From positions 1-64,000 of the forward strand of contig JAIQGG010000005.1 of NCBI GenBank assembly GCA_020072785.1: a DNA stretch of 64,000 bases. The letters run 5' to 3'. Under the pieces are notes generated by a model. It did no database searches, was not told the DNA's origin, and worked only from the letters and a program-made list of their open reading frames with translations. The position numbers were made by a program, and so were the translations under genes. Origin of the DNA: Terriglobia bacterium (lineage in GTDB: Bacteria > Acidobacteriota > Terriglobia > Acidiferrales > UBA7541). Positions 272 to 3,660 of the stretch are shown piece by piece; position 1 is the stretch's first letter; every line of letters begins with the position of its first letter.

Positions 272-1024
272 CTACTTTGCCGGGCCGCCGGGTTCCGCGG
301 CGTATTTCGCGATCATCTTGCCGGCGATGCGGCCACCTTCGTATTCCGGGATGATGACTTCGTTGGCGCCAGAGGTGCGCATGGCCGCGGCGTAGCGCTC
401 ATGTCCGGCGCGGGTGATGATGACCAGCCTGGGGTTCAAGGCTTTGGCGGTGATGGTGATGTAGAGGTTGTCGGCGTCGTTGTCGATGACCACGCAGATG
501 CCGCGGGCGCGGCGGATGCCCGCCTCCTCGAGGACGCTGTGACGCTTGGCGTCGCCCTGGATCACCAGCACGCCCTCCTGCAGGAGCTGGCGGTACAAGC
601 CATCGTTGGTTTCCAGAAGGACAAAGGGAATTTTGGAGCGCGTCAGTTCCTCGATCAGCGTGCGGCCCACCTGGCCGTAGCCGCAGATGATGAAGTGATC
701 GCGGACCAGTTCGAGATTGAAGTCGTTCATCATGCTTTTCCACACCTCCCGCCCCTGATGGCCGAAAAAGGATAGAAGGATGCGCTCCGCGAACCAGATC
801 TGGAAGGCGAAGACGCCACCGTAGACGAACAGCGAGAAGAGTTTGGTGCTATCGCGCGTCTGCCGGGGTTCAATGGCATGCGGATGAATGGTCCAGAAGA
901 GGGCATCCACCCAGCGCAGATGCTCGAGGCGCACGTAGACCCACACACAGACCAGAAGAAAAGCCGCAAAAAGCAGCGCCGGTGTCAGCAGCCGGCGGAA
1001 GAGCAATCGGAGTGCACGATACAT
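272..1024 (-). CDS. Two-TM membrane protein with RCK/TrkA-N domain, no K+ filter
   Basis: 250 aa. The N-terminus has two hydrophobic segments (about residues 13-32 and 60-80), then a Rossmann RCK/TrkA-N domain from about residue 108 with the dinucleotide motif GYGQVG at 115-120 and an acidic residue closing the second strand (LLETND). The layout is that of an MthK-type two-TM K+ channel. The pore loop, where TVGYGD should be, instead reads TIHPHAIEP (about residues 45-53), so K+ selectivity is not expected. It starts 13 nt after the PQQ dehydrogenase stop and is probably co-transcribed with it. It could be an NAD(H)- or ligand-sensing membrane regulator or a channel of other selectivity. Confidence 0.8.
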   Translation of the reverse strand: MYRALRLLFRRLLTPALLFAAFLLVCVWVYVRLEHLRWVDALFWTIHPHAIEPRQTRDSTKLFSLFVYGGVFAFQIWFAERILLSFFGHQGREVWKSMMNDFNLELVRDHFIICGYGQVGRTLIEELTRSKIPFVLLETNDGLYRQLLQEGVLVIQGDAKRHSVLEEAGIRRARGICVVIDNDADNLYITITAKALNPRLVIITRAGHERYAAAMRTSGANEVIIPEYEGGRIAGKMIAKYAAEPGGPAK

Positions 1025-1037
1025 ACTTTTTCAGACC

Positions 1038-2684
1038 TTACTTTTGCGGAGCCGCCTCGCCGGCGCTCGCCGGCTCCGGCAGAGCGAAGGTGAGCAGGGC
1101 GCTGCCTGCGGCGATGGCCACGTACTGCTTGCCATCCACGGAATAGGTCATCGGGGAGGCGTAGAGCGCCGCACCGGTGGGAAAATGCCACAACATCTTG
1201 CCGGCGCGGGCATCGAAGGCGATGAGGTTGCCTTCGACGTCGCCGGCGAAGACCAAGCCGCCCGCGGTCGCCAGGGTCCCGGCCCAGGGCGCGGAAAAAT
1301 GATCGAACTGCCATCGTACTTCGCCGGTCTTGGGATCGATGGCCTGGAGCGCGCCGCGGTCTTTTTCGCCGCTCGCGGGAATGTACATGCTCCCGAGATA
1401 GGCGTGACCGGGGACTAGCGCCTGGGGTTCCGCGGTGAAGATATCGCACTGCTCGCGGGTGTTGACGTAGAGCAGCCCGGTCTGCGGGCTGTAGGACGGG
1501 GACATGAAGTTGGTCGCGCCGATCGCTCCGGGGCAGACGTGCACGCCCACCGCCGTGGGCTCCGCGCCAGGCGACTGGATCGCCCGCCCCTTGTCGTCGA
1601 GGCCTTTGGCCCAGGTGAGCTTCACGAATGGCTTACCGAGGATAAATTTACCGGTGGTGCGGTCCAGGACGTACAAAAAGCCGTTGCGGTTGGCGTGCAC
1701 GAGGGTCTTGCGCAGCTGGCCGTTGAGTTCCATGTCCAGGAGCACGGGAATTTCCGTGGAGTCCCAGTCGTGCAGGTCGTGCGGGGTGAACTGGAAATGC
1801 CACTTCAGCGCGCCGGTGTCCGGGTCCAGAGCCAGCATGGAATTACTGTAGAGGTCGTCGCCGTGGCGCTGCGATCCGTCGTTGGACGGCGAAGGATTTC
1901 CCGTCGGCCAGTAGAGCAGGTTCAGTTCGGGATCATAGGAGCCGGTCAGCCAGGCGGGGGCGCCGCCGCGGGTCCAAGAATCGCCTTCCCAGGTTTCGTG
2001 GCCGGGCTCGCCCGGGCCAGGGATGGTGTAGAAGCGCCAGGCGCGCTTGCCGGTCTTGGCGTCGTAGGCGTCGATGAAGCCGCGCACGCCGTATTCGCCG
2101 CCGCTCACTCCAACGATGACTTTGTCCTGCACGGCCAGGGGGGCCAGGGTAAAGCTGTAGCCCTTGGAATAATCGCCGGCTTGCACATCCCACAGAACGT
2201 TGCCGGTCTTGGTGTCCAGGGCCAAGACGTGGGCATCGAGGGTGGCCAGGAACAGGCGGTCGCCGAGGATGGCAAATCCGCGGTTCACATGGCCGCAGCA
2301 GAGGCGGAGTTTTTCCGGGAGTGCGCGCTGGTAATGCCAGATGGTGCGGCCGGTGCGGGCATCGAGGGCGAAGGCGTGATTGTCCTGCGCGGTGACGTAC
2401 ATCACGCCGTCCACGACCAGAGGCGTGGTCTCGAATTTTCCCGGCGCGGGGCTCTGGAAGACCCACTGTGCCGCGAGGGTGGCCGCATTTGCGGCGGTGA
2501 TCTGCTGCAGCGCGCTGAAGCGGCGCCCGTCGTAGCTTCCGGAGTAGGTCAGCCAATTCTGCGGCTCGCCGGCCGCACGTTCGATGCGCTCCGGGGTAAC
2601 CTGCGCCGCGAGGCGTGCAGTGCCGGGGAAGGCCAGCAGCGCGAGTACAAGACTCTTCAGCATAGCGGTCTGCATGCTCTTCAT
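1038..2684 (-). CDS. PQQ-dependent alcohol dehydrogenase, lanthanide-type signature
   Basis: 548 aa, periplasmic, with a signal peptide (hydrophobic stretch then AAQ near residue 28). Quinoprotein beta-propeller with repeated ALD..TG blades. It oxidises primary alcohols or aldehydes and passes electrons to cytochrome c. Visible family residues are the vicinal Cys-Cys at 129-130, the metal-ligand Glu in SGGEYGVRG (E197), Asn in TGNPSPSN (N263), and PHDLHDWD with the likely catalytic D306 followed by D308. An Asp two positions after the catalytic Asp marks lanthanide-using XoxF/PedH-type enzymes; calcium MxaF enzymes have Ala there. R333 (ANRNG) matches the PQQ-contacting Arg. It lies 9 nt downstream of a diheme cytochrome c, its likely acceptor. 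Confidence 0.9.
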   Translation of the reverse strand: MKSMQTAMLKSLVLALLAFPGTARLAAQVTPERIERAAGEPQNWLTYSGSYDGRRFSALQQITAANAATLAAQWVFQSPAPGKFETTPLVVDGVMYVTAQDNHAFALDARTGRTIWHYQRALPEKLRLCCGHVNRGFAILGDRLFLATLDAHVLALDTKTGNVLWDVQAGDYSKGYSFTLAPLAVQDKVIVGVSGGEYGVRGFIDAYDAKTGKRAWRFYTIPGPGEPGHETWEGDSWTRGGAPAWLTGSYDPELNLLYWPTGNPSPSNDGSQRHGDDLYSNSMLALDPDTGALKWHFQFTPHDLHDWDSTEIPVLLDMELNGQLRKTLVHANRNGFLYVLDRTTGKFILGKPFVKLTWAKGLDDKGRAIQSPGAEPTAVGVHVCPGAIGATNFMSPSYSPQTGLLYVNTREQCDIFTAEPQALVPGHAYLGSMYIPASGEKDRGALQAIDPKTGEVRWQFDHFSAPWAGTLATAGGLVFAGDVEGNLIAFDARAGKMLWHFPTGAALYASPMTYSVDGKQYVAIAAGSALLTFALPEPASAGEAAPQK

Positions 2685-2693
2685 CGCTGGCTC

Positions 2694-3530
2694 TCACTCT
2701 CCACGGAGGGTCTCGAGATACGCCAGAAGGCCGCGGAGTTTGGCATCGGGAAGCTCGGCCGGTCCGTAGGCCGGCATGAAGGACTTCCCTTCGTGCACCA
2801 CACTCTTCAGGTCCTTCTTGAGAAGGAGATGAAGATTTTCGCGGCCGTCCATCAATTGGATGGAAAAGGAGTCTTCGTTCCTGGCGATGCCCGTGAGCTT
2901 GGCCCCGTCAGCCAGGGTCACGGTCACGATTTCATAGGTCATGGGAAAATCGCGGCCCGGCTCGCTGAGTCCCTCGGAGATCTGCCTGTCCGGCTCGCGG
3001 AGCGACTCGATGATGTATTCCTGAGAACGCGCTTCCGCGACGCGCGAGAGATCCGGCCCGACGCGCCCGCCGCGGCCGCGCACCATGTGGCAGGCGGAGC
3101 AGTAGCCCTCTCCGAAGAAGAACTTGCCCCCTTCCGCGGGGTCGCCGGTTGCGGCCGGGCGGGCTTTCGGCTGCAGGGTGCGCAGGTAAGAGATAATTTC
3201 CCAGGTTTCGTCGTCGGAGAGGTCGTTGGCAGGCATGAGCGTGCCCAGAATGCCGCGGAGAATGAGGTTGTAAAGGGCTTCGTCGGAAGAACCGTGGATG
3301 AGGCGCCCGGTCACCAGGCTGGGCCCGCGCAGACCGCCCGTGGCGGCGCTGCCGTGGCACATCGCGCAATTGATCCGGAAGTTTGCCCGGCCGTCGCGGA
3401 TGGCCTCCGGCTTGCCTTGCACGGGATTGCGCTGGGCTTTCGCACCTTGCTCCTGGGCGGCACACCAGGTGTACCCGCTCAGCAGCCCCAATCCCAGCGT
3501 GACCACAAAGAATTTCCCGGCACGTTTCAC
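2694..3530 (-). CDS. Diheme c-type cytochrome
   Basis: 278 aa with an N-terminal signal sequence and two heme c sites, CAMCH (55-59) and CSACH (144-148). Candidate axial Met residues are in LMP (M99) and FMP (M252). Between the second heme site and the C-terminus is a segment like the one after heme motifs in planctomycete/acidobacterial heme-binding modules (LTGIARNEDSFS...LKSVV...SFMP). The start is GTG with AGGGTG just upstream. It is the first gene of a three-gene minus-strand operon with the PQQ dehydrogenase and the RCK membrane protein. Probable periplasmic electron acceptor for the dehydrogenase. Confidence 0.9.
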   Translation of the reverse strand: MKRAGKFFVVTLGLGLLSGYTWCAAQEQGAKAQRNPVQGKPEAIRDGRANFRINCAMCHGSAATGGLRGPSLVTGRLIHGSSDEALYNLILRGILGTLMPANDLSDDETWEIISYLRTLQPKARPAATGDPAEGGKFFFGEGYCSACHMVRGRGGRVGPDLSRVAEARSQEYIIESLREPDRQISEGLSEPGRDFPMTYEIVTVTLADGAKLTGIARNEDSFSIQLMDGRENLHLLLKKDLKSVVHEGKSFMPAYGPAELPDAKLRGLLAYLETLRGE

Positions 3531-3660
3531 TGGACACCCTCGCGCTTTGCCGTGCGCGAATGCTATGCGCCCTGAGCGCGGGAGTCAACCGGCGGCCGCA
3601 AAAACAAAAAGAACGGGCAGCCTTGCGCCCGGGGCGGCGCTCGGTGCGATTGTTCCGGTT

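Follow-up and report, generated by a model that had tools for sequence, protein, structure and literature searches.

In sections of PMC11996626 on quinoprotein dehydrogenases, the motif D-x-D is taken as a direct indicator of lanthanide use, which is an assumption of that study, and is used for counting lanthanide enzymes in metagenomes. The same sections state that every sequence of the GDH clade carries D-x-D, that Gcd is predicted to be facultatively lanthanide-dependent and that Ca, Mg, Zn and Sr are all metals with which Gcd-type enzymes can form complexes. For soil Acidobacteria, parts of PMC10875860 describe XoxF3 systems that have XoxG and XoxJ among their partners; some hosts of these systems are unable to make pyrroloquinoline quinone (PQQ). 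Here we analyzed a locus in a 64,000-nucleotide (nt) stretch of a Terriglobia bacterium (contig JAIQGG010000005.1; the whole stretch is called the window), which an earlier note had described as a single operon of a lanthanide-type PQQ dehydrogenase, a diheme cytochrome c and a membrane protein with an RCK domain. Our analysis revealed that the cytochrome and the dehydrogenase form a conserved pair with an intact active site, that this pair is ordinary for the genus, and that the RCK gene is an unrelated neighbor.

The locus consists of three minus-strand open reading frames (ORFs) in series, the cytochrome followed by the quinoprotein dehydrogenase and then by the protein with transmembrane (TM) segments and RCK domain, with intergenic gaps of 9 nt and 13 nt, respectively. 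This order, both gaps and the dehydrogenase residues named in the earlier note were reproduced when the sequence was rechecked. Window base 1 is the start of the contig, which lies 271 bases past the stop codon of the RCK gene and limits the context on that side. The features are as follows.

2694..3530, minus strand: diheme c-type cytochrome, first gene of the pair (278 aa, GTG start; Cytochrome_CBB3 and TIGR02603)
3354..3368, minus strand: first heme-binding motif, CAMCH (cytochrome residues 55-59)
3087..3101, minus strand: second heme-binding motif, CSACH (cytochrome residues 144-148)
1038..2684, minus strand: PQQ-type dehydrogenase (548 aa, ATG start; assigned by TIGR03075 score, tree and best solved relatives)
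1761..1784, minus strand: PHDLHDWD with D306-x-D308 (dehydrogenase residues 301-308)
272..1024, minus strand: TM1, pore-helix-like segment, TM2 and RCK (TrkA_N) protein (250 aa, ATG start)
845..889, minus strand: loop in place of the K+ selectivity filter (RCK protein residues 46-60; family-conserved [HQ]P-x-[AS]-[IL])
3560..3588, minus strand: weak sigma-70-like promoter match upstream of the cytochrome (1 found versus 0.7 expected by chance)

The cytochrome carries a Cytochrome_CBB3 domain and scored 89.6 bits against TIGR02603 (cut-off of 68.15), and this match together with its two CxxCH motifs identified it as a diheme protein. Matches to the dehydrogenase were found in 33 of the 36 genomes of the same genus and a close orthologue (at least 746 bits) in 23 of them, the own genome being included in both counts. 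Wide flanks were obtained for 20 of the 22 other close orthologues, while the remaining two loci, L052 and L060, were examined separately; the gene lists of several fetched stretches came from a simple ORF picker and may miss small genes. At all 20 wide-flank loci the cytochrome adjoins the dehydrogenase on the same strand, with a 95-aa ORF between the two genes at L091, and the cytochrome is also present at L052, which brings the total to 21 of 22 same-genus orthologues. No cytochrome was seen at L060, where the locus lies at a contig end. The RCK gene, on the other hand, was found at none of the 20 fully fetched orthologous loci, and the pair therefore constitutes the unit. Its conservation exceeds chance, and in this respect the earlier proposal of a dehydrogenase and a diheme cytochrome acting as one unit was borne out. 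Scans of the locus for promoters and terminators remained at chance level.

The dehydrogenase is a member of the methanol/ethanol family of PQQ-dependent dehydrogenases (TIGR03075; 603.7 bits, cut-off of 480.05). Its best solved relatives are 6zcv (408.9 bits) and 6zcw (400.9 bits), followed by a type II quinohemoprotein alcohol dehydrogenase (ADH; 380.2 bits) and XoxF (371.1 bits); 6ZCW is PedH according to a section of PMC11996626, the structure match itself being labelled only as quinoprotein ethanol dehydrogenase. When the site residues were aligned with 6zcv, XoxF 6dam and relatives, C129, C130, E197, N263, D306, D308 and R333 were all present, and the tryptophan of the PQQ floor (W237) and N392 were kept as well. 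Four sequences (L064, L065, L066 and L038) were removed from this alignment and duplicates were dropped, among them L096, L098, L099 and L094; L096, L098 and L099 were later examined for the D-x-D motif only. Against the neighboring family TIGR04528, the protein scored 554.7 bits, and it is not a member at the curated cut-off of 650; all eight proteins tested, seven of them from the clade of the window dehydrogenase, stayed under this cut-off. The NCBIfam name of that family, acido-empty-quinoprotein group A, and a score not far below the cut-off suggest a rival explanation, namely a beta-propeller that works without PQQ in a structural role, with another cofactor or in other chemistry. Relatives in which the CC pair or the floor Trp is gone would fit such a protein; the window protein, by contrast, keeps both, along with its full set of metal and cofactor residues. 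Our literature search found no paper on an 'empty quinoprotein'.

Two kinds of altered relatives were recorded. In L073 (5387-7114, genome G019), SPEAAARG replaces GDSWTRG at the PQQ floor, and the genome has neither PqqC nor PqqE over the cut-off. L097, L067 and L100 encode quinoproteins without the CC pair (e.g., DDASQHHNRG) that have Asp at the E197 position and retain D-x-D.

The D-x-D motif occurs in all 30 clade members checked, including a Sinorhizobium fredii protein encoded on the conjugative rhizobial plasmid psfSMH12a (L120 5401-7584; 46% identical, TPHDERDWD). At the position of the second Asp, the quinohemoprotein ADHs of the same genus have Thr, among them the second quinoprotein of this genome (L094 6844-9171, G000:C5:98843-101170; 781-aa frame, TIGR03075 at about 674 bits). 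The aligned residues of E. coli Gcd are HHDLWDMD, and the second Asp is thus not exclusive to XoxF and PedH. We built a tree of 23 rows, comprising the window protein with 8 of its 22 close orthologues, 6 paralogues at greater distance, 3 quinohemoprotein ADHs and 5 reference sequences, in which Gcd, the S. fredii protein, the PedF-linked row and L096 carry a long-branch warning. The dehydrogenase fell into a 16-row clade (99/100) apart from the two XoxF rows, the PedF-linked Azospirillum enzyme and the quinohemoprotein ADHs. In this tree, which has no MxaF or ExaA row, it was placed neither inside a proven lanthanide clade nor among proven calcium enzymes, the latter being the placement that the earlier note had set against its own proposal. 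The clade consists mostly of Acidobacteriota proteins, and we know of no characterized member.

Since D-x-D occurs in every clade member checked and yet Gcd, which can hold various metals, has D-M-D, the metal evidence points both ways. Of the label 'lanthanide-type', the second Asp proved real and common to all clade members checked, but it is shared with Gcd, and the clade stands apart from XoxF and the PedF-linked enzyme. None of the partners of XoxF3 systems described in the sections of PMC10875860 was seen in the window unit. Judged from its residues, the use of a lanthanide by the dehydrogenase is possible, and the chances that it is lanthanide-competent appear about even; the enzyme may take up a lanthanide, calcium or either of the two.

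The third gene encodes a protein with a TrkA_N domain, soon after which it ends, and its sequence matches MthK over residues 19-238. The architecture of TM1, pore helix, TM2 and RCK was recovered in a low-confidence structural model (predicted local distance difference test [pLDDT] score of 62, read for helix order only) with TM1 at residues 2-34, a short pore-helix-like helix at 38-46 and TM2 at 58-87. A Foldseek search with this model matched 6u68 with an E value of 7.6e-7, and TM-scores against MthK were near 0.3. Searching 399 genomes of the class with an RCK profile yielded nine genomes with at least 357 bits before a drop to 123 bits, and a search of the phylum (396 genomes) yielded five at E values of 1e-50 or lower, two of which were already known, so that three genomes from another class were added. 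All 12 family members, from 12 genomes in two classes, lack TVGYG and contain the [HQ]P-x-[AS]-[IL] loop instead, which upholds the description of the protein as filter-less; the other channel of this genome (L153 5607-6611) retains TTVGYGE. No such family appeared among the titles and abstract openings listed by literature searches on RCK proteins and selectivity filters.

The loss of the K+ filter could mean that the protein is a functionless remnant of a channel. We regard this as very improbable, because the frames are open without internal stops in all 12 genomes of the two classes, the replacement loop is conserved, and nonsynonymous divergence (dN) lies well below synonymous divergence (dS). 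By the NG86 method, applied to five pairs of which one was saturated, the dN/dS ratio was about 0.07-0.22 in the four pairs with finite dS (e.g., dN of 0.193 versus dS of 0.93), and as far as these comparisons indicate, the family is under purifying selection. The protein retains the architecture of a channel pore without the K+ filter, and it would most likely act as a non-conducting, membrane-bound nucleotide sensor.

Within the genus, the RCK gene was found in 2 of the 36 genomes, and a scan of the genome contigs with two peptide patterns yielded two loci, one of which (L071) belongs to the RCK family. No quinoprotein was found near the RCK gene in any of the 11 other carriers (fetched stretches of 6.9 to 20.7 kb). 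The closest RCK copy (76%) is that of genome G003, and this genome has no quinoprotein match anywhere; at another carrier locus, L131, a weak cytochrome match (26-33% identity) was seen. The three-gene operon was accordingly rejected as a conserved system, and the trio was missing from related genomes, an outcome that the earlier note had named as refuting its reading. A lanthanide-dependent dehydrogenase, its cytochrome and an RCK protein that regulates or couples them could still be imagined as one three-gene system, given the contiguous genes with their short gaps and the D-x-D of all clade members checked. We consider this improbable, as RCK is absent from the orthologous loci, the other RCK carriers lack a neighboring quinoprotein, Gcd shares the motif, and the clade stands apart from XoxF and the PedF-linked row. 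The trio was found in the genome of the window only, and the RCK protein very probably plays no part in the working of the enzyme.

Several related channels were recorded alongside this family. A second filter-less 2TM-RCK family occurs in four genomes of the same genus (L132 5294-6091, L133 5431-6246, L134 5479-6186 and L135 5108-5788) and reads about NAIYFRSRPDSFWVLYSFWGQC at the filter position. In many ordinary-looking acidobacterial 2TM-RCK channels (L008, L010, L110, L112, L118 and others), the residue after TxGY is Q, E, D, P, M, T or Y, so the last Gly of TVGYG is often replaced there. In all three genomes of genus g146, which belongs to the other class, one and the same gene comes after the filter-less RCK gene.

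L150 5712-6716, L151 8054-9058 and L152 7860-8864: 334-aa gene with an ATPase-like motif after the RCK gene

The supply of PQQ was analyzed as well. In the genome of the window (G000), the best PqqE match reached 90.5 bits against a cut-off of 381.35 and PqqC gave no match; in the same survey, PqqE was over the cut-off in 27 and PqqC in 28 of 61 genomes. PqqB is present (329.7 bits, cut-off of 245), which ruled out a loss of the whole PQQ pathway. In G003, a ZIP transporter, a sigma factor, an anti-sigma factor, two ORFs and an MFS gene are followed by pqqE-pqqD-pqqC-pqqB on the other strand, whereas in the own genome the same neighbors (MFS 72%, ZIP 79% and sigma factor 84% identical) are followed by 213 bases and then directly by pqqB. 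The names of these neighbors and of the G003 pqqD (L095 9744-10079) were read from translations and not from database matches. In the own genome, pqqC, pqqD and pqqE are absent from this syntenic locus, the only place where PqqD was sought. An assembly gap was rejected as the cause because the MFS gene and pqqB lie 213 bases apart and, with the other syntenic neighbors, on one 1.6-Mb contig. The pqqB gene itself is intact and high-scoring and stands alone (L138 9808-10740, G000:C2:785810-786736).

Both PqqE and PqqC were under the cut-off in 6 of the 23 genomes with a close orthologue, namely G000, G005, G017, G018, G019 and G021 (completeness of 98.9, 86, 95, 97, 91 and 73, respectively), and both were present in the other 17. 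In G017 (C173:7714-9203), the gene after pqqB is a pqqC match that lacks an internal part (model positions 1-132 and 196-238 are covered) in a genome without pqqE over the cut-off, possibly a second, partial loss of pqq genes. The missing genes at the locus of the window's genome mean that the enzyme works on imported PQQ or on none. According to sections of PMC12124388, many Gram-negative bearers of quinoproteins do not make PQQ and import it via PqqU, and among Acidobacteria, PqqU is found only in Vicinamibacteria, so that others may use their own PQQ or diffusion. The six genomes without PqqE and PqqC and the lack of a clear importer favor the beta-propeller working without PQQ; the 17 genomes that have both proteins, the intact residues of the window protein and the frequent supply of PQQ from outside speak against it, and we consider it unlikely. 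Less likely still, the clade enzyme would be active with a non-PQQ redox cofactor in the same pocket and a rare-earth or calcium ion, in which case pqqC, pqqD and pqqE would have been lost in several lineages, and the enzyme and cytochrome kept, because the other cofactor is used.

Collectively, the locus is probably best explained by an exported quinoprotein of an uncharacterized clade with a dedicated cytochrome and by an independent, conserved 2TM-RCK protein. Outside the inner membrane, the dehydrogenase would use PQQ and a metal ion, the latter bound by E197, N263, D306 and D308, to oxidize an alcohol- or aldehyde-like substrate, and the electrons would pass to the diheme cytochrome c and onward to the respiratory chain. 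With pqqC, pqqD and pqqE gone from the pqq locus, PQQ would come from the surroundings. Several points weigh against this explanation. The clade lacks the Trp after the last strand, the window protein having A-G-S where related enzymes have A-G-W or S-G-W, and the nearest relative, L073, lacks the floor Trp. The single-sequence model of the dehydrogenase, with a pLDDT of 39.9, was too poor for inspection of the site. A search with E. coli PqqU gave partial matches of 39 bits at best and hence no clear PQQ importer; scavenging would therefore lack an established route, and the protein may act without PQQ. Finally, given the gap of 13 nt, the RCK gene is likely to be co-transcribed with the pair, and a functional link between them that is specific to this lineage is conceivable.

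The locus is an ordinary gene pair for the genus with an unrelated neighbor. Of more interest than the pair itself are the lost genes pqqC, pqqD and pqqE and the family of filter-less RCK proteins. The in-place loss of these genes with quinoproteins kept makes PQQ sharing or a PQQ-free function testable in Acidobacteriota, and the RCK family offers a natural example of a channel fold that has outlasted the loss of its ion selectivity. The clade, frequent in one genus and with no characterized member known to us, provides a good test of whether D-x-D alone suffices for lanthanide calls.

Compared with known systems, the dehydrogenase shares with PedH and XoxF (6zcv, 6zcw, 6dam and 6oc5) the family, the metal site of E, N and D-x-D, and the CC pair. 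It differs from them by its separate clade, by His before the catalytic Asp where PedH and XoxF have Trp, by the missing Trp after the last strand and by a cytochrome partner with a TIGR02603 domain. E. coli Gcd has D-x-D at the same alignment position but is far more distant and 796 aa long, and the proteins of the TIGR04528 group are related quinoproteins whose curated cut-off the window protein does not reach. The RCK protein resembles the RCK-gated K+ channels MthK and GsuK in TM1, the pore-helix-like segment, TM2 and RCK_N, but unlike these channels it is a 250-aa protein without the TVGYG filter.

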